A stretch of 64,000 nt of DNA from Niveispirillum lacus (GTDB lineage: Bacteria; Pseudomonadota; Alphaproteobacteria; Azospirillales; Azospirillaceae): the NCBI RefSeq assembly GCF_002251795.1, contig NZ_NOXU01000029.1, forward strand, positions 1-64,000, in the 5' to 3' direction. Positions 48,163 to 58,244 of the stretch are shown here, piece by piece (the first letter of the stretch is position 1; each line of letters opens with the position of its first letter). The position numbers and the translations under genes were made by a program. The notes under the pieces are model-generated. The model made no database searches, was not told the DNA's origin, and saw only the letters and a list, made by a program, of their open reading frames with translations.

Positions 48163-49566
48163 TCAGGCCAGCCGCAGGCCCAGCCAGCGGCGGGCGACCG
48201 GCACCTGTCGCAGGATGACCAGGTCGATCAGGGCCACCAGGATGACCGAGGCCCCCAGCAAGGGCAGGAACAGGGCAAAACCCAGCAGGATCATCCCCAT
48301 CACCGCCGGACTGCCCTTCAGGCGCAGCGGCGGCGGCGCCCCCAGCGCGCCGGCCGGGCGACGTTTCCACCACATCACCGCCCCGCTGACCGACAAAAGG
48401 ACAAGACCCAGGGCAGCGACAACGCCCAGTGCCTGGTTGACCCAGCCGAACAACTGCCCCTCATGTGCCGCGATGCCGATGCCGACCACCCGGTCGATAA
48501 CATGCCGGTCACCGAAATCTTCCCGCCGGACCATGGTACCGGTGGACCCGTCCAGGTCGATGGCGACGCGGTTGGGCCGGTTGGCTGTCATCGACCGCAC
48601 AGCCCAGTTTCCGCCCACGCTGGCCGGCAGGTTGATCAGCACCGGCGCGGCCAGATTCAGTGGCGTGACCCTGGCCACCACCTCTGTCAAGCTGACAGCG
48701 CCAACCATCATATCATCCATGGACAGGCCGGCATGATGCATTCCATCGGCTTCTGCATGATCATGGGCGTCATGGCCCGCCCGCTCGGCGCGGCGGCTGG
48801 TGGTCCAGTCCTGCTGAACTGCCGCCGTGCCGGTGGCCTTGCGCACCGTTTTAAAGGCTTCTCCCCATACGGATGCCCAGGGCAGACCAGTCAGCAGCAG
48901 GAACAGGGCCAGGAACGACACCCACAGTCCCACCACGGCATGCAGGTCGCGCCAAAAGGTCCGCCCGCCCGCCGTCAACCGGGGATAAAGCACGCCCGCC
49001 CATCCCTGCTGACCGCGTGGCCACCAAAGGTACAGGCCGCTGACCACCATAACGATACCCCAGCAGGCGGCAAGCTCCACAAACAGCGACCCATTATCGC
49101 CCAGCAGCAATTCACCATGGAACTTCTTGATCTGCTGCATCAGGCGGTCTTCCTCCCGGATCTTGTGCAGCACCTCCAGCGACTGGGGATGCACATAGAC
49201 CCGCCACACCGCCCCCTGCCCATCCCGCACCAGGACGCGCACCGCATCATCTGCCTCCTCCGGCAGGATGTAGGTGCGCAAGGTGCCATCTGGCACGGCC
49301 GCGAGGGCGGCCAGTGCCTGCGCGTTGGCATCCGCCGCCGGCCCAGTCAGGACCAAATGGTCATAGGGCCGGTCGATGAACGCCTCCACCTGCGGCTTGA
49401 ACAGGTAAAGCGCACCGGAAATGGCCAGGGCAACGATAAAGGGCACGCAGAACAGGCCCGCATAAAAGTGCCAACGCCAAATGGTCCGGTAATCCAGCCA
49501 TCCTTTGGCCGAAAGAGCTTTGCCCGGCCCTGTATCGCCGGATGACTTGGTCGACAGGTCCGTCAT
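48163..49566 (-). CDS. PepSY-domain membrane protein, probable metal reductase partner of the TonB receptor
   Basis: 467 residues with four main membrane helices and PepSY-type periplasmic loops. The N-terminus has YRTIWRWHFYAGLFCVPFI, then FHGELLLGDNGS, YLWWPRG, FWRDLHAVVGLW and AAHEGQLFGWVNQALG: the conserved histidines of the PepSY-TM family, which may bind haem. A His/Asp/Met-rich loop (GHDAHDHAEADGMHHAG at 264-280, then MDDMM) suggests metal binding. The family often reduces iron or copper at the inner membrane. It is 5 bases downstream of the TonB receptor and third gene of the DUF2946 operon. Confidence 0.88.
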   Translation of the reverse strand: MTDLSTKSSGDTGPGKALSAKGWLDYRTIWRWHFYAGLFCVPFIVALAISGALYLFKPQVEAFIDRPYDHLVLTGPAADANAQALAALAAVPDGTLRTYILPEEADDAVRVLVRDGQGAVWRVYVHPQSLEVLHKIREEDRLMQQIKKFHGELLLGDNGSLFVELAACWGIVMVVSGLYLWWPRGQQGWAGVLYPRLTAGGRTFWRDLHAVVGLWVSFLALFLLLTGLPWASVWGEAFKTVRKATGTAAVQQDWTTSRRAERAGHDAHDHAEADGMHHAGLSMDDMMVGAVSLTEVVARVTPLNLAAPVLINLPASVGGNWAVRSMTANRPNRVAIDLDGSTGTMVRREDFGDRHVIDRVVGIGIAAHEGQLFGWVNQALGVVAALGLVLLSVSGAVMWWKRRPAGALGAPPPLRLKGSPAVMGMILLGFALFLPLLGASVILVALIDLVILRQVPVARRWLGLRLA

Positions 49567-49570
49567 GGCG

Positions 49571-51865
49571 TCAGCCCTTCCATTTCAGTTCAAGTGTGAA
49601 GGTGCGTTGCGGATAGGGGTGGAAGACCCAGGCCTTGTCATTGCCGATATTGTCGACACCGACACTGATCTGCGTCTGGCTTGTCACATCCCAGGAGAGT
49701 TTTGCATCAAAGATCATCAGCTCTGACATGTAGCCATAGGTATCGCCGCGTTGCGTACCTTCCAGATTGGTGTTCGGGCGCGACGCATAACGCCAGCCGG
49801 TAGAGATTTGCCAATCCGGTGCAAACCGGTAGCGGGCGTTGCCGTTCAGCCGCCATTTGGGGATACGTGGGAACTGCACCCCCTCAGAGGCCGGCACCGA
49901 CCGGTTGCGTACCGTCTGTGCGTCGATCCACGCGGCGTTAAAATCAAGGTCCAGCCCCTGGATGCCGCCAAGATTCGCCGCCTCAACGATCCCCTCCACG
50001 CCCCACTGACGCACGATGTCGATGTTTTTAAAAGAGGAGGTGACAATGCCGAACTGGTTGAAACCCTGCTGGTTGAAAATCGCATCCTCAACCCGCTGAT
50101 AGAAAATGCTGCCCGTGAAGCGGATATCATCAAAGGCCCGGCGCAGCATCAGGTTGGCATCGCGCGACTTTTCCGGTTTCAGATTGGGATCGAAGCTGTT
50201 GATGTCAAAATTGCCATTGCCGTCCAGACGCCCCTGAAACAGTTCCGCGACCGTGGGAAAGCGGGTGGCGGTCGCCAGGCTCACCTGCCCGACCCAATCA
50301 CCCGGCAGGTCAATGTGGAGACCAGCGGACGGATTGACTGCGGTATCACTGCGATCCGTGTAGGACTGATAGCGCGGTGTACCGGAAACGCGGCTGCCAA
50401 TGCGCCCGTCAAACGCCCGCCAGTGATCAACACGCAGACCACCGGTCAGTTTGACTGCCGGCGTTACCTGCCAGGCATTATCGACAAAGGCGCCCAGTTG
50501 CCGGGACCGGCCGCCGGTGCCTGTGGTGAAAATCGGTGTGGCCCCAGTACGCCAATTACTGACGCCATAGATGGTCTGATCGGTTTCATACAGGCTGCTG
50601 TTGAACCCGATAGCCAGTTCATGGTCGCCCAGCGTGCGCTCCACCTGCCCATCCCCAGTCCACCAGCCGGTATCCCCCTGGCGTGTGTCAGTGCCAAGGG
50701 TGCTGTTGATCCCGTTCAGATAGCCGGTCGATGTCCGGGCGCGCTGCTTGTCGATGATGAAGCGTGACAGGTTCAAGCTGGCCTGCCAGTCGCCCACTGG
50801 CCCCTCCAGTTTCAGCCCCCCCAGGATTTCCCGCCGTTCGGTTACCGACAGGTTGATAGCGGGCAAGGTGAATTGCCGCCCATCCACCGTGACCCGGCCG
50901 GTAAAGACCGGATTGCCAGCCGCATCCCGCAGGTAGGTGGTGGGACTGGTACCGTCATATTCGCTGGTCCAGAGCACGGCCAACAGAGCGGCATTCCAAC
51001 CATCGCCGAAATCATACCCGATGCGGCCACGCAACTGGTCCTGTGTGGTGTCCTCAACCGTGAAAGCACCAGAGACCGGCGTTTTGGTGATCAGGTCCGG
51101 GTCGGTGACAGCCCCGGTCACAAGGGTTGATGCCGCCGAACCCGTGGCAGGTGTCAGTTGATAGAATTGCTGCGGATGGCCCTGGTTCTCCAACCGACGG
51201 TAGGAAAGGCGGGCGCTCCACGGTCCATCGTCCTGTTTCCAACCGAAACCGGCCTCCCCGGTATAGCCATCGAAATTCCGGTCCGTGCCGTACTGTTTAT
51301 AGGGCTGCACGAAGTACTGTGCCGTGGCAAAAGCTTCCACACCGTCCTGCGGGGGCTTGGTGGTGATGGAGATGATGCCACCCATCGAATTGCCCGGATA
51401 GCGGGACGAATAGGGGCCATAAACGATATCGAACTGCGCCACTTCGCCAGGACCGACCACACCCCATTTGGGCGGAAAGCCGAAACTGTTGCCCAGCAAA
51501 TTGGAAACGGTGAACCCGTCGACCTGCACCAGCGAACGGGCTGATTGCGTCGAATGGGTGCCACGGAAACCGGGAACGGCATTGGCATCACCGATGAAGC
51601 GTTTGCGCACGAAGAAGTTCGGCGCATATTTCATCAGGTCTTCGACATTCACGGCATTGATGGCGGCAAAATGCTCGGCACCTAAGGAAACAGACAGGCC
51701 GCGCGGCACGATGGTGATGGGTACATCACGCTGGCCGATGACAATCACCTCCTGGATGGGGGTGGCTTCGGCGACCTGGGATTCCTGACCAAAGGCAGGC
51801 GTGGCAAAGGCGACAAGGGCAACCGAAGCCGCCAGGCTTCGGGCGCGAAAAGGCGTGCGGGGCAC
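49571..51865 (-). CDS. TonB-dependent receptor, probable copper receptor
   Basis: 764 residues from the GTG at 51865, which has GGAGGA nine bases upstream; no ATG fits a signal peptide. The signal peptide ends at TPAFGQ. IQEVIVIGQRD is the TonB box region. Plug motifs are NVEDLMKYAPNFFVRKR, SARSLVQVDGFTVSNLLG and YGPYSSRYPGNSMGGII, and the last strand ends RTFTLELKWKG. Operon context (DUF2946 before, PepSY after) parallels the copper-repressed bfrG operon of Bordetella pertussis, so copper or a copper complex is a likely substrate, but this rests on context. Confidence 0.92.
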   Translation of the reverse strand: MPRTPFRARSLAASVALVAFATPAFGQESQVAEATPIQEVIVIGQRDVPITIVPRGLSVSLGAEHFAAINAVNVEDLMKYAPNFFVRKRFIGDANAVPGFRGTHSTQSARSLVQVDGFTVSNLLGNSFGFPPKWGVVGPGEVAQFDIVYGPYSSRYPGNSMGGIISITTKPPQDGVEAFATAQYFVQPYKQYGTDRNFDGYTGEAGFGWKQDDGPWSARLSYRRLENQGHPQQFYQLTPATGSAASTLVTGAVTDPDLITKTPVSGAFTVEDTTQDQLRGRIGYDFGDGWNAALLAVLWTSEYDGTSPTTYLRDAAGNPVFTGRVTVDGRQFTLPAINLSVTERREILGGLKLEGPVGDWQASLNLSRFIIDKQRARTSTGYLNGINSTLGTDTRQGDTGWWTGDGQVERTLGDHELAIGFNSSLYETDQTIYGVSNWRTGATPIFTTGTGGRSRQLGAFVDNAWQVTPAVKLTGGLRVDHWRAFDGRIGSRVSGTPRYQSYTDRSDTAVNPSAGLHIDLPGDWVGQVSLATATRFPTVAELFQGRLDGNGNFDINSFDPNLKPEKSRDANLMLRRAFDDIRFTGSIFYQRVEDAIFNQQGFNQFGIVTSSFKNIDIVRQWGVEGIVEAANLGGIQGLDLDFNAAWIDAQTVRNRSVPASEGVQFPRIPKWRLNGNARYRFAPDWQISTGWRYASRPNTNLEGTQRGDTYGYMSELMIFDAKLSWDVTSQTQISVGVDNIGNDKAWVFHPYPQRTFTLELKWKG

Positions 51866-51931
51866 GGCAAATTCCTCCGGCGACCGGACCCACGCCTGTA
51901 AATGTCTCAGGCGGGTGGTGCCAACTATGGA

Positions 51932-51967
51932 TTTCCTGGGATGGTTAGGATCAGCAAGCCCAGGAAA
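51932..51967 (-). promoter_or_regulatory. Hairpin straddling the DUF2946 stop codon
   Basis: A perfect 9-bp inverted repeat, TTTCCTGGG (51932-51940) and CCCAGGAAA (51959-51967), with an 18-base loop. On the mRNA the 5' arm lies in the last codons of the DUF2946 gene, two bases after the Pro-Pro of the RAPP motif, and the stop codon (51953-51951) is in the loop. No U tract follows, so it is not a Rho-independent terminator. A ribosome halted at RAPP would cover the 5' arm. A role in copper control of the operon is inferred. Confidence 0.6.
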
Positions 51968-52361
51968 GCGGCGGCGCCCGCGCGCCCAGCGTCGGACCGC
52001 ACCACAGGCGGCGACGCCGTAAAGGTGTGAAGGAAGAACGGATAACCGCATCCAGCACCGCCGGCAGCAACAGCGCCAGCAGCAAAAGGACCGGGCCTAG
52101 AAGGGTCATACCCATAAAGGGACAAAGGCCCTGATGGGCGGTATCAGCGGGGGCCGCACCATCGCCATCCGCCCCATCCATCTGGATGCTGGCCGATCCG
52201 ACGCTGGTACAGATCACCAGCCAACCCTCGCCATTGTCCGGATTGAGGTTGGGCATGTAGCCGCCGGGGATCATGCCCCGCAGCAGCAAGGCAAGCAGCA
52301 GGGTCCACGGCGCCACTTGCCGTGCCATGACCTTGAAGACGGACAAAATCCCCCTGCTCAT
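51951..52361 (-). CDS. cruR: DUF2946 protein, CruR-type copper-responsive leader
   Basis: 136 residues. An N-terminal membrane segment (APWTLLLALLLRGMIPGGYM) carries the DUF2946 motif RGMIPGGYMPN. Then come VICTSVG (Cys51), HQGLCPFMGM (His76, Cys80, Met83, Met85), a second membrane helix, and the C-terminus GARAPPLSWAC. RAPP (128-131) is the translation-arrest motif of CruR, the DUF2946 leader protein of B. pertussis, where copper binding to CXXC relieves arrest and causes Rho termination before the TonB gene. Here CXXC is replaced by CPFM. The gene is followed 85 bases later by the TonB receptor. Confidence 0.88.
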   Translation of the reverse strand: MSRGILSVFKVMARQVAPWTLLLALLLRGMIPGGYMPNLNPDNGEGWLVICTSVGSASIQMDGADGDGAAPADTAHQGLCPFMGMTLLGPVLLLLALLLPAVLDAVIRSSFTPLRRRRLWCGPTLGARAPPLSWAC

Positions 52362-52556
52362 ACCGGTGTAATGAACCCAAGTACCAGGCGCGTCAATGGC
52401 CCCCTGGTGCGACGCAATGGCCACCCTCCCTTTCCTCTGCTGCATGTCGGGGAAAGCATCTCGGTGGCGAGGTCGGGCATTCATCACACCTGACCTTGGC
52501 ACAGCCTCTACCCGCACCGGTGGCAGGCTCTGTTAGCTTTCTGCTAAACTGCCGAC

Positions 52557-53450
52557 ATGCAGGACCCCCTACCGCCCGAACCATTTCCCTGGCCCTTTGA
52601 CGGTGACACCTACCGTATGACCATGGGCCTGCGCAGTCAGGACCCGGCCACGTGGCTTGCGCCCGATGCGGGCTGGACGGCGCAGCTAACCGAACGGTCG
52701 AACCGGCTGCGTAATCAGAAATGGGATGTGTTGGCCCTGATGCCAGAGGGGCTTGACGCAGCCGGCGAGTGTCTGACCCTGGTCAGCACCCATCTCACCA
52801 ACCATTTTCCGGGCTGGTTTCAGCGCCAAGCCGACGGGATCCACAGTTCGGTGACCGGTACAACGCTGCGAATGGCAGATTTTGATCACCCGCTGCACAT
52901 GGCAGCCCATCTGCAGCCCGACGATCTGTGCCTGATGACCCCATCGGCGGGGGGCTGGCGGTTGACGGGCGGGGCGGTTTGTTTCCCTTCCCACTGGTTC
53001 CTGCCGCATATGCTGGGCAAGCCGTTGCCCGGTATCCACCGGCGGGTTCCCAGCTATGCCACCACCCTGGCCACACCCGTGGACCGGTTCTTCGACATGC
53101 TGGCCGCCGGCCGCACGGTCTGGCGGGTCAACTGGACCCTGGCGGACGACCCGGCACTGTTTCAGCCCGGCACCGTGGCGCATAAACCGGTTGATGCCAG
53201 CATCAACGACAGCAATGGCGCAGACAGGTTGTATTTACGGGTGGAGCGGCAAACGCTGACCAAACTGCCGGTCAGCGGCGCCGTGATCTTCACCATCCGT
53301 ACGCATATGCGGCCGCTATCCGCTCTAAACGGGGCGCAACGGTATCAGTTCGCTTCCATCCTGCGGAGCCTTCCCGATGCTGTTGCGGCCTATAAGGGGC
53401 TGCAACGGACAGGGGCGATGGCCTTGGCCGCTCTGGATGACGTCAGATAA
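52557..53450 (+). CDS. DUF3445 protein, haem-dependent N-demethylase-like
   Basis: 297 residues of the DUF3445 family, which includes the alpha subunit of haem-dependent oxidative N-demethylase (HODM). Segments seen are [63 protein letters not shown] and [27 protein letters not shown] alpha binds haem in a PAS-like domain. The reductase and ferredoxin partners of the full enzyme are not adjacent. Divergent from the DUF2946 operon; overlaps the convergent thioesterase gene by 8 bases. Confidence 0.85.
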
Positions 53451-54960: not shown

Positions 54961-55872
54961 ATGGATCGCCTGACCGTCAATACCAGTCCCCGTCAACTGA
55001 TTGACGGTGCGCCCGCTCTTTCCGCCCTGGGGTGGGGCATGTGGCGGTATCACGGCGATGATCTGGGCGCTGCGACGGCCCGCTGCATGGCAGCCCTGGA
55101 GGCCGGGATCACCCTGTTCGACACAGCCGATATCTACGGTTTCGACCATGAACATGGGTTTGGTGCAGCGGAAACGCTGTTCGGCCGGGTTCTGGCCGCC
55201 AATCCTGGTTTGCGTGGCCAGATTGTGCTGGCCAGCAAGGGCGGTATTCAACCACCGATCCCCTATCATCAACGCGGCGAGCAGTTGATTGCGTGTTGCG
55301 AGGCCTCGCTGCGTCGGCTGAATGTCGACTGCATCGATCTTTATCAGGTCCACCGCCCGGATTTGCTGGCCCACCCGGCGGAGGTTGCGGCGGCCCTGGA
55401 CAAACTGCGCCAACAGGGGAAGATCAAGGCGGCCGGCGTCTCCAACTACACCCCGGCGCAGGTGGCGGCCCTGGCGGCACATCTGCCGTTCCGGCTGCTG
55501 TCAGTCCAACCGGAATTCTCCCCCCTGCATATCGCTCCCCTGTTTGACGGGGTGCTGGATCAGGCCTTGGAACGGAACTTGACGGTGCTGACATGGTCGC
55601 CGCTGGGGGGTGGCGGACTGGTGCGTGGTGCGGCAGATGCCCGCACCGCCCGTGTCGCCGCCGCCCTGGACATCATTGCCCATCGACAGGGCACCACCCG
55701 CGCCGCCGTTGCCTATGCCTGGGCCATGGTCCATCCTGCCCGCCCTATCCCGCTGGTCGGCAGCCAGACGCCTGACCGCATCCGGGAAGCTGCGGATGCC
55801 CTCAAGGTGGAAATGACGGGGGCCGACTGGTATGGCGTCCTGGTCGCGGCCCGTGGTACCCCAATGCCCTAG
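54961..55872 (+). CDS. Aldo/keto reductase
   Basis: 303 residues, TIM-barrel AKR. The catalytic tetrad is visible: Asp and Tyr in LFDTADIYG, Lys in VLASKGG, His in LYQVHRPDLL. The NADPH site is in SNYTPAQVAAL and LVGSQTPDRIREAADAL. The start follows GGAA at close spacing. It overlaps the convergent copA by 4 bases. Substrate unknown. Confidence 0.92.
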   Translation: MDRLTVNTSPRQLIDGAPALSALGWGMWRYHGDDLGAATARCMAALEAGITLFDTADIYGFDHEHGFGAAETLFGRVLAANPGLRGQIVLASKGGIQPPIPYHQRGEQLIACCEASLRRLNVDCIDLYQVHRPDLLAHPAEVAAALDKLRQQGKIKAAGVSNYTPAQVAALAAHLPFRLLSVQPEFSPLHIAPLFDGVLDQALERNLTVLTWSPLGGGGLVRGAADARTARVAAALDIIAHRQGTTRAAVAYAWAMVHPARPIPLVGSQTPDRIREAADALKVEMTGADWYGVLVAARGTPMP

Positions 55873-58244
55873 ACCCCTGGCCGCCAGCGCCGCAGCAGCA
55901 GGGCATTGGCAACGACACAGACACTGGATGCTGCCATGGCCGCCCCGGCCAGCATGGGGTTCAGCAGCCCGGCCATGGCCAGCGGTACACCAATAATGTT
56001 GTAGATGAAGGCCCAGAACAGGTTCTGGCGGATTTTGGCAACGGTTCGGCCTGAGATCGCGATGGCATCCGCCACAAGCGCCGGGTCGCCGCGCATCAGC
56101 GTAATGCCCGCCGCCCGCATCGCCACATCGGTACCGGTGCCCATGGCGAAGCCAATATCAGCAGCAGCGAGGGCCGGAGCATCATTGATACCATCACCCA
56201 CCATGGCCACCACCCGGCCGCCTTTGCGCAGATCGGCCAGCGCATCGCCCTTATCCTGGGGCAGCAGTTCGGCCAGCACCTCCTCTACCCCCAGGGATGC
56301 CGCGGTCGCCGCTGCCGCTCCGGCATTGTCCCCGGTCACCATCACCGTCCGGATGCCCAATGCCTTCAGCCGCACGATGGCTGCCGGCCCAGTCTGTTTG
56401 ATCCGGTCACCAAAGGCGATCAGTCCCAACAGCATCCCATCGGCCACCAGATAGGACAGGGTGCGGCCCTGCGCCGTCAGGCCGCGTGCCACGGGCGCCA
56501 GATCCCGGATATCGATGCCGCGTTCTGCCATCAGCCGGGCATTGCCCAGCAGCAAATGCTGCTCCGCCACCTGTCCTTCCACACCCAGGCCCGGCAACGC
56601 ACGGATCGCATGGGCCGCCGGCACAGCCGGCATGGCGTCACACACTGCCGCCGCCAGCGGATGTTGACTGCCCACCTGCAGCGCGGCGGCAAGGCGCAGA
56701 ACCTGGATGCGGTCGCCCCCCGCCACCGGCTGCACCGCCACCACCGCCGGTTTGCCTTCGGTCAGGGTCCCGGTCTTGTCAAAAGCCACCACACCGATAT
56801 CCCGCGCCCGCTCCAGCGCCTCCGCGTCGCGGATCAGAATACCGGCACGCGCCGCGACCCCGGTCCCCACCATGAGCGCGGTGGGTGTGGCCAAGCCCAG
56901 GGCACAAGGACATGCGATGACCAGCACCGCGACGGCGTTAATCAACGCCGTTTCCACCCCGGCCCCTGCCAGCAGCCAGCCGGCCAGGGTCAGCAGCGCC
57001 AGCGCCAGGATCACCGGCACAAAAATGGCGGACACTTTGTCGACCATGCGCTGCACTGGCGCCTTTCCCGCACTCGCCTGTTCGACAAGCCGGATGATCC
57101 GCGACAGCGTACTGTCGGCGCCCAACGCCCCCGCGGTCACGGCAATGAAGCCATCCAGGTTCAATGACCCGCCGGTGACAGCCGCCCCCGGCCCCTTGGC
57201 TACCGGCAGGCTTTCCCCGGTCAGCATGCTTTCATCCAGGTGGGTTGTGCCATCCAGGATCTCACCATCGACGGGCACCTGTTCACCCGGCCGCACCAGG
57301 ACCACATCGCCGCGCTGCAACTGGGCGATCGGCATGGTGACCTCCGCCCCGTCACGACGGACCCGCGCCAACAGGGGCCGCAGCGCCATCAGCGCTTCAA
57401 TGGCCGCACCGGTTTTGCGCTTGGCCCGTGCTTCTAACCATCGGCCCAGCAGCAGCATCGCGATGATCACCGATGCCGCCTCATAATAGAGGTGGGGCGC
57501 ATGCCCGGCATGGGCGTCGAGCCACATCCAGCCGGACAGGCCCCACGCCGCCAAGGTGCCCAGCACGACGAGCACATCCATGCTGGCCGTACGGTGTTTC
57601 AAGGCGTTCCACGCTCCGGCATAGAAGGGCCAGCCCAGCCCGAACTGTACCAGACTGCCCAAGATAAACTGCGCCCAGGCTGGAAGGGGCGGACCGCCCA
57701 GCATCGGCAGCACCAGCGGCATGGACAGGATCAGGGCAAGGGCCGCCCGTGTTCCTTCGCCCAGACCCGGTTCTGACCTGGCGGTAATGGCGGTCGGGAT
57801 ATCCGCAGAGGCTGTTGGCTCCGCCGCCGCCGCGACGCCATAGCCGGCATTATGCACAGCGGCGGTCAGGTCATCATCGCTGACCTCCGCCACATCAATC
57901 AGGGCGATACTGGTGGCCTGTGAGATTTTGACATCAATCACGCCGGGTACAGCCCGCAGCGCCTTTTCCGCCTTGCCGACACAGGCTGCACAACGCAGGC
58001 CGGTCAGCGTCAGGCGTTTGGCCTGCACCACTGGTTCAAACCCGGCATTGGTGATTGCAGTGACCACTGCCACCGGAAGTTTCGGGCCGGCAGCGTCGCC
58101 AGGCGTGACCAGAACGCGCTGCGACGACAAGTTGACACAGACCGACGCCACACCCGGCAGCGCGGCCACAGCCTTTTCAATCCGCCCCGCACAGGAGGCA
58201 CAACGCATGCCCTGCACGGGCAAAGACAGGCTTGCAGACGACAT
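55869..58244 (-). CDS. copA: Copper-translocating P1B-type ATPase
   Basis: 791 residues. Two N-terminal heavy-metal domains carry Cys15/Cys18 (GMRCASCAGR) and Cys85/Cys88 (GLRCAACVGK). The transmembrane metal motif is Cys445-Pro-Cys447 (ACPCALGLATP), with helix-7 YN and helix-8 MSS residues (FIYNIIGVPL, AAMAASSVCVV) typical of Cu+ ATPases. The actuator TGESLP, the phosphorylation DKTGTLTEG and the nucleotide-binding residues are present. It exports Cu+ from the cytosol. It has a CueR-type operator upstream. Confidence 0.97.
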   Translation of the reverse strand: MSSASLSLPVQGMRCASCAGRIEKAVAALPGVASVCVNLSSQRVLVTPGDAAGPKLPVAVVTAITNAGFEPVVQAKRLTLTGLRCAACVGKAEKALRAVPGVIDVKISQATSIALIDVAEVSDDDLTAAVHNAGYGVAAAAEPTASADIPTAITARSEPGLGEGTRAALALILSMPLVLPMLGGPPLPAWAQFILGSLVQFGLGWPFYAGAWNALKHRTASMDVLVVLGTLAAWGLSGWMWLDAHAGHAPHLYYEAASVIIAMLLLGRWLEARAKRKTGAAIEALMALRPLLARVRRDGAEVTMPIAQLQRGDVVLVRPGEQVPVDGEILDGTTHLDESMLTGESLPVAKGPGAAVTGGSLNLDGFIAVTAGALGADSTLSRIIRLVEQASAGKAPVQRMVDKVSAIFVPVILALALLTLAGWLLAGAGVETALINAVAVLVIACPCALGLATPTALMVGTGVAARAGILIRDAEALERARDIGVVAFDKTGTLTEGKPAVVAVQPVAGGDRIQVLRLAAALQVGSQHPLAAAVCDAMPAVPAAHAIRALPGLGVEGQVAEQHLLLGNARLMAERGIDIRDLAPVARGLTAQGRTLSYLVADGMLLGLIAFGDRIKQTGPAAIVRLKALGIRTVMVTGDNAGAAAATAASLGVEEVLAELLPQDKGDALADLRKGGRVVAMVGDGINDAPALAAADIGFAMGTGTDVAMRAAGITLMRGDPALVADAIAISGRTVAKIRQNLFWAFIYNIIGVPLAMAGLLNPMLAGAAMAASSVCVVANALLLRRWRPGV

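Follow-up and report, generated by a model that had tools for sequence, protein, structure and literature searches.

In Bordetella pertussis, the DUF2946 protein CruR (BP2923) is encoded by an upstream open reading frame of the cruR-crtA(bfrG)-bp2921 operon, and the binding of copper to a CXXC motif of its nascent chain relieves the stalling of the ribosome at a RAPP motif, after which Rho terminates transcription (PMC9426467). The double substitution C90S and C93S strongly impairs this control, whereas C51S does not; the motif is separated from RAPP by 45 residues, and changes of the spacing by one to two residues are tolerated but an extension by five is not (PMC9426467). The stall at RAPP was observed in vitro, with the two prolines positioned in the P and A sites (PMC12992588). 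In the discussion of PMC9426467, CXXC is termed the invariant copper-sensing motif of the leader family. CutF of Rhodobacter capsulatus is a DUF2946-like nascent copper sensor with a CxxxC motif and a C-terminal proline motif, and cutO is activated when a stem-loop that covers its Shine-Dalgarno sequence is opened; the CutF-like proteins were divided into 29 clusters that differ in their Cys/His sites, and in some clusters these contain His only (PMC9973294). For the most part, signal sequences are found in leaders located before TonB receptors, and transmembrane segments in leaders of YcnI genes (PMC12992588). RAPP and RGPP peptides are also known before sec genes and before genes for DsbA and thioredoxin-like proteins (PMC12992588, section 13). 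CrtA and CrpH are described in PMC12914433 and PMC13038864, and the CrtA family of copper-responsive TonB transporters is mostly beta- and gammaproteobacterial (PMC12914433, section 4). DUF2946 genes occur in a Zur/zinc context in Caulobacter (PMC4176598), and therefore not every DUF2946 protein is a copper sensor.

The leader analyzed here is located in a 64,000-nucleotide stretch of the Niveispirillum lacus genome (the window), at positions 51951..52361 of the minus strand. It has a length of 136 residues, starts with the ATG at 52361 and ends with the stop codon at 51953-51951. The initial annotation had given the reading frame these coordinates, and we find it to be real: a Pfam profile search matched residues 19-131 to PF11162 (DUF2946) with 35.8 bits (cut-off 23.7), and the ATG is backed by four orthologs from the same genus (L036, L040, L042, L044), as the frame opens just two codons upstream. 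The RAPP motif, a predicted translation arrest site read directly from the codons at 51969..51980 (minus strand) and analogous to that of B. pertussis (PMC12992588), is intact at residues 128-131, close to the C terminus. The codons also place Cys80 (52122..52124, minus strand) and Met83 (52113..52115, minus strand) where they had been reported. Met36 (52254..52256, minus strand) is part of a G[FY]MP motif that follows the first hydrophobic segment, and Cys51 (52209..52211, minus strand) is part of an ICT motif.

The leader is followed by a gap of 85 bp (51866..51950, minus strand) and by the gene of a TonB-dependent receptor (49571..51865, minus strand), which has Pfam Plug and TonB_dep_Rec_b-barrel domains and starts with a GTG codon at 51865 preceded by GGAGGA. 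The gene of a PepSY_TM protein (48163..49566, minus strand; PF03929, 231.8 bits) begins 4 nt 3' of the receptor gene. Pfam matches to all three proteins bear out the previously proposed order of DUF2946, TonB receptor, and PepSY genes, which was found in nine genomes of the genus, N. lacus and eight others; in this comparison, the receptors are 73-90% and the PepSY proteins 70-87% identical to those of N. lacus. Judged from this gene order, the leader heads a predicted TonB receptor - PepSY_TM operon. A copper-type P-type ATPase is encoded outside the operon, 3.5 kb upstream of the leader (55869..58244, minus strand; TIGR01511, 568 bits, cut-off 397). No counterpart was found next to the operon in the sequence stretches retrieved from relatives, and the ATPase gene is thus weak context. 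The divergent neighbor at 52557-53450 of the plus strand encodes a protein similar to the alpha subunit of haem-dependent oxidative N-demethylase (PF11927, 222 bits).

To place the cysteine motif, we used 158 distinct DUF2946 sequences, among the matches listed, that were read by a local profile from a part of the Pfam-found loci of 82 genomes of the order and 385 of the class. Among these matches, the column of Cys80 contains Cys in 156 of 158 sequences, and the two prolines of the arrest motif are likewise present in 156 of 158; the leader is thus not a chance reading frame. The column of Met83 contains C in 115, A in 23, G in 8, T in 3, L in 3, M in 2, and H in 1 of the 158 listed matches, and a gap in 3. 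As read from this alignment, the second Cys is gone from the N. lacus leader and from roughly one in four sequences of the sample, and its place is rarely taken by Met. Position 83 is separated from Arg128 by 44 residues in N. lacus, and the corresponding spacing in CXXC members has a median of 46, with the middle half at 45-46. Both the alignment column and the spacing thus uphold the earlier proposal that CPFM is in register with CXXC, with Cys80 corresponding to the first Cys and Met83 to the lost second one. A register in which Cys80 would be the second Cys of CXXC (HCPLC aligned with HQGLC) was rejected on the basis of the alignments: CAFC members with a His four residues before the first Cys place Cys80 at the first Cys, and the resulting spacing to RAPP of 47 fits worse than 44. 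In a search of 11 genomes of the genus with the Pfam profile, 19 places scored above the cut-off, and none of the 19 contains the second Cys. As far as the evidence goes, the N. lacus leader would operate in the manner of CruR; because the defining CXXC motif was tested and is absent, we do not file it as CruR proper. The characterization of the leader in the initial annotation as a CruR-like RAPP peptide heading TonB and PepSY genes was accurate; it made no mention of Met36, Cys51, the second hydrophobic segment, or the absence of CXXC from the Pfam-detected members of the genus.

A FastTree phylogeny of 226 sequences, calculated with columns 36 and 83 removed, positions the N. lacus leader in a clade of 90 sequences (branch support 61), 89 of which have no second Cys. 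The next larger branch has a support of 94 and contains 96 sequences, 91 of them without the second Cys, and seven sequences lacking it are located outside the clade. The clade includes alpha- and betaproteobacteria. Cys80 is present in all 90 members and in 225 of the 226 sequences of the tree, and Cys51 in 89 of 90 members and also in 125 of 136 sequences outside. Met36 is present in 90 of 90 members of a set that was partly selected for its motif, since 37 loci came from a search with GYMP among the peptide patterns and others were found via profiles A1 and A4. The spacing between position 83 and the arrest Arg is 44-46 residues in 79 of 90 members. In the Pfam-seeded set, among the matches listed, Met36 is present in 31 of 43 single-Cys sequences vs 17 of 113 with CXXC. 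The 31 listed single-Cys sequences with Met36 read C-[PALV]-[FY]-x, and the 12 listed ones without it contain CPLG (3), CCLG (2), CCFG (2), CDLA, CPLH, or a gap (3). A repeated exchange of the second Cys for Met36 was considered and rejected, as the tree shows eight changes of the Cys state and, on supported branches, three independent pairs, which reach no significance. As far as the tree can tell, the link between Met36 and the loss of the second Cys is carried by essentially one clade, with no independent repeat.

Several individual leaders deserve separate description. That of Advenella mandrilli (L174:5501-5932) is the sole clade member with both GYMP and a full CAFC, and is a possible intermediate. 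One genome of the genus contains three different single-Cys DUF2946 leaders (L038, 1495-1920, 2228-2746, and 7999-8412) and another contains two (L043, 2167-2685 and 7935-8348), located within about 7 kb per genome and with a PepSY_TM gene nearby. Single-Cys GYMP leaders also occur in betaproteobacteria, the relatives of the CruR model: an Alcaligenaceae MAG (L172), Paenalcaligenes (L175), and Bordetella trematum (L177), where the gene after the leader has no Pfam match. In the mainly open-access literature searched, we found no description of a DUF2946 class with a single-Cys motif and Met36, Cys51, and Cys80, although such a cluster may already be drawn among the 29 cluster profiles of PMC9973294.

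The genes located directly after the leaders provide the link to copper. The next gene was selected mechanically: of the start-to-stop frames that began no more than about 460 nt from the leader, the longest was taken. Such a gene was absent for 3 of 82 single-Cys leaders; 62 of the 79 available genes were scanned, after 17 short, second, or other-motif frames had been dropped by hand. The 62 genes, from a set biased towards relatives of the N. lacus leader, include 45 TonB receptors (Plug), 3 DUF1775/YcnI, 2 SCO1, and 2 PCuAC genes. For the CXXC leaders, all from alpha- or betaproteobacteria and not from one family alone, 3 of 120 had no next gene, 21 genes were dropped by hand, and the 96 scanned of 117 available include 24 Plug, 22 PCuAC, 11 DUF1775, and 3 SCO1 genes. 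SCO1 directly follows the leaders of Achromobacter animicus and A. mucicolens (L190, L193), PCuAC those of the Alcaligenaceae MAG and Paenalcaligenes hominis (L172, L175), and YcnI those of Pollutimonas bauzanensis, a Herbaspirillum MAG, and L111 (L184, L195, L111); all seven leaders were confirmed to belong to the clade. The N. lacus genome itself encodes a second clade leader (G000:C10, L256:5542-6012) with the motifs GYMP, ICG, ACPFG, and RGPP, located directly before PCuAC and SCO1 genes; it was missed by Pfam and caught by profiles A1 and A4. Both leaders found in the N. lacus genome by Pfam and the two profiles, a search that more divergent ones could escape, thus have no CXXC. The position of clade leaders before SCO1, PCuAC, and YcnI genes, including one in the N. 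lacus genome, indicates that the role of the N. lacus leader is probably copper-responsive. We regard this leader as real and conserved, and as a member of a single-Cys branch of the CruR/CutF family.

We give about an even chance to the leader being a RAPP arrest peptide of the CruR kind that responds to copper in the absence of CXXC, with Met36, Cys51, and Cys80 as the probable sensor residues. At low copper, the ribosome would stall at RAPP (128-131), and the TonB receptor and PepSY_TM protein would be expressed. When copper is plentiful, the metal would bind to the nascent chain and relieve the stall, and expression would end; the most likely means is termination by Rho within the 85-bp gap. 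The sensor site would most likely be formed by Cys80 together with Cys51 and Met36, and would be neither CXXC nor CXXM. Because Cys80, Cys51, and Met36 are 50, 79, and 94 residues away from Pro130, these candidate ligands would be located outside the ribosome during the stall. Cys51 is dispensable in the CruR of B. pertussis (C51S, PMC9426467), which by analogy speaks against a role of this residue, though CruR has CXXC.

The composition of the gap is in keeping with such a shut-off, though it does not prove it. In 78-nt windows over 51878-51981, the plus-strand skew is 0.13 to 0.19, without a control, which means that C exceeds G in the transcript of the leader end and the gap, as for Rho termination in B. 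pertussis. A terminator scan found none. The transcript can form a 9-bp hairpin, the 5' arm of which (51959..51967, minus strand) is made of the codons just after RAPP, while its 3' arm (51932..51940, minus strand) belongs to the intergenic region, so that the stop codon of the leader is positioned in the loop. When Pro130 is in the P site of a stalled ribosome, a footprint of the usual size would extend over the 5' arm. Across six genomes of the genus, 92.6% of the cells pair, a value reached by 9 of 500 shuffles, and sliding the partners by 1-3 columns reduces the paired cells to 31-66%. Changes on both sides occur in 2 of 9 pairs over the six genomes, and 54 of 500 shuffles reach two. L041 and L045 have a 7-bp hairpin of different sequence in the same place. 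The whole stretch around the hairpin has no unusual folding in N. lacus (z -0.71 and -1.39). A hairpin after RAPP throughout the family was rejected, as there is a weak tendency only: the mean z of post-RAPP folding is -0.86 vs -0.34 for an in-gene control in the clade (75 sequences, p 0.053), and -0.44 vs -0.21 outside it (127 sequences, p 0.24). We claim the hairpin for the genus alone. We also rejected the unmasking of the Shine-Dalgarno sequence of the receptor by the stalled ribosome, since the predicted accessibility is 0.22 vs 0.21 in N. lacus; the shift with the stall is at most 0.10 in seven orthologs, and L037, which has no GGAGG, gave no usable value.

Upstream of the leader, a conserved block with a promoter-like TTGACG - 17 nt - CATTAC (52368..52419, minus strand) ends 6 nt before the ATG. 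The arrangement common to six genomes is CATT..GTCGCA.CA.....CCATTGAC, followed, at 17 bases from the TTGAC hexamer, by CATTA[AC] and, another six bases on, by the ATG, and the block has one site in the N. lacus genome when up to three mismatches are allowed. A sigma-70 scan that included the block called no promoter. No Shine-Dalgarno sequence was seen by eye before the ATG of the leader (52362-52419, minus strand). A transcript from the promoter-like site would begin at the ATG or immediately beside it, and the leader mRNA may therefore be leaderless.

The N. lacus leader contains two hydrophobic stretches. The first, read by eye, comprises about residues 17-33, and the second about residues 85-103 (52053..52109, minus strand), with a 19-residue hydropathy of 2.51; it is followed by five K/R and one D/E before Arg128. 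A 19-residue hydropathy of at least 2.0 between the Cys motif and RAPP is reached by 35 of 90 clade members vs 4 of 136 sequences outside, and the segment is absent from 55 of 90 members. All nine operon leaders of the genus have it (hydropathy 2.22-2.75), and other leaders of the genus do so in part. In 26 of these 35 members, the segment begins 4-5 residues past Cys80, and 24-29 residues remain between it and the arrest Arg; averaged over all 35, it is followed by 3.9 K+R and 0.5 D+E. According to the positive-inside rule, such a distribution of charges corresponds to a C-terminus that stays in the cytoplasm. The hydrophobic stretch after Cys80 in the nine operon leaders suggests a membrane hairpin. 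Because in these leaders, judged from sequence alone, Met36 lies at the end of the first segment and Cys80 at the start of the second, copper may hold both membrane segments together and thereby exert a pull on the stalled chain. In its most specific form, the leader would be a copper-gated membrane-hairpin arrest peptide with Cu(I) bound between Met36, Cys51, and Cys80 and with the RNA hairpin timing the stall: the metal would drive the insertion of the second segment, and a pull exerted about 25 residues from the stall would free the ribosome from RAPP. We regard this elaboration as doubtful.

The same segment could mean that the leader of the genus senses no metal and monitors membrane insertion or export, with the pull of the inserting second segment setting the release of the RAPP stall. 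The hydropathy peak in 35 members, its mostly uniform start (26 of 35) after Cys80, and the positive-inside pattern behind it would agree with such a monitor, as would the RAPP/RGPP peptides before sec genes (PMC12992588, section 13). The downstream genes, however, are those of metal uptake and copper chaperones, no sec or yidC family was encountered among the next genes scanned, and 55 of 90 clade members have no such segment, so that we consider an insertion monitor to be distinctly unlikely.

Copper as the ligand is questioned by the receptor. Its match to the copper-specific OprC-type family TIGR01778 (45.6 bits) does not reach the cut-off of 472, and the haem receptor PhuR is the only sequence in the PDB that it matches at E up to 0.001. 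Both results count against the copper-responsive reading. A leader of the same kind might thus respond to iron or haem, zinc, or another metal. The haem receptor families also match the receptor, far under their cut-offs, and, beyond the zinc/Zur context of DUF2946 in Caulobacter (PMC4176598), His-only CutF-like clusters are located before Ni/Co genes (PMC9973294, section 11). Against another ligand stand the clade leaders before PCuAC, SCO1, and YcnI, one of them in N. lacus; moreover, the best Fur-like 19-mer upstream of the leader agrees in 10 of 19 positions, and the plus strand of the window contains 349 places that score at least as high. We judge a different ligand to be quite improbable.

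The initial annotation had proposed a CXXM sensor, in which His76, Cys80, and Met83 (or Met85) would bind Cu(I) and relieve the stall. The register of CPFM with CXXC agrees with this proposal. Its expected conservation next to TonB and PepSY genes was checked and is contradicted by the nine genomes with the same operon, which have at position 83 Met in three (N. lacus, G074, G073), Leu in three (G068, G070, G072), and Ala in three (G069, G071, G075). Because M, L, and A vary in this manner, CXXM is not the conserved feature. Throughout the clade, position 83 is A in 55, G in 16, S in 6, M in only 4, T in 3, L in 3, N in 2, and C in 1 of the 90 members. A relaxed form, with a Met at +3 to +5 from Cys80, fares better than the strict CXXM, as it is weakly enriched in the genus: it occurs in 11 of 24 genus sequences, with membership assigned by script, in 7 of 66 other clade members, and in 5 of 136 sequences outside. 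Nevertheless, a Met at these positions is missing from the two CPFA operon leaders, G071 and G075, and His76 is not invariant; a sensor of this type is very unlikely. Equally implausible is a redox function, in which a Cys51-Cys80 disulfide formed outside the cytoplasm would be reported by the stall, with copper as oxidant only: in the clade, these two cysteines are the near-invariant ones, and RAPP/RGPP leaders do precede DsbA and thioredoxin-like genes (PMC12992588, section 13), but the 62 next genes scanned include no thioredoxin-like matches other than the two SCO1 genes, which also match AhpC-TSA, and sequences outside the clade contain Cys51 almost as often.

In the genus and in a wide clade, the arrest motif, its spacing, and the copper-gene neighbors are retained without the supposedly invariant CXXC (PMC9426467). 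If single-Cys leaders still respond to copper, the rule by which nascent-chain copper sensors are recognized and explained must change, and the natural orthologs in which Met, Leu, or Ala replaces the lost Cys allow a direct test of this question. If the membrane-hairpin reading is true, the metal sensor would be a nascent membrane protein of two helices that has no CXXC.

The N. lacus leader resembles CruR in its DUF2946 family, the C-terminal RAPP, the Cys at a distance of about 50 residues ahead of the prolines of the stall, and the position at the head of TonB receptor and PepSY_TM genes with an intergenic gap, and its spacing of 44 residues between position 83 and Arg128 is inside the tolerance of CruR (45, with 1-2 either way). 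It differs in having one Cys (CPFM) where CruR has CXXC, in the Met36 and Cys51 that are near-invariant in its clade, in the second hydrophobic segment with a positive flank, and in the gap of 85 bp, which in CruR is 162 bp. The transcription start of CruR is located 45 bp before the start codon, whereas the promoter-like site of N. lacus ends 6 nt before the ATG, possibly resulting in a leaderless mRNA. CutF is likewise a DUF2946-type leader with a C-terminal proline motif; the N. lacus leader, however, has no CxxxC, and the stall leaves the predicted accessibility of the Shine-Dalgarno sequence unchanged. The CXXC-type DUF2946 leaders from other genera of the family (CPLC, CAFC) share the protein family, RAPP, and a spacing of mostly 45-46, and differ in that both Cys are kept. 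SecM and the RAPP-type monitors of Sec and YidC are similarly small membrane or exported proteins with a RAPP-like stall near the C terminus (PMC12992588), and, by analogy, membrane insertion could exert a SecM-like pulling force in the N. lacus leader; its downstream genes are metal genes, unlike those of the monitors, and it has the conserved Met/Cys/Cys. Although located before a TonB receptor, the N. lacus leader looks, from its hydrophobic segments, like the transmembrane (YcnI-type) kind.
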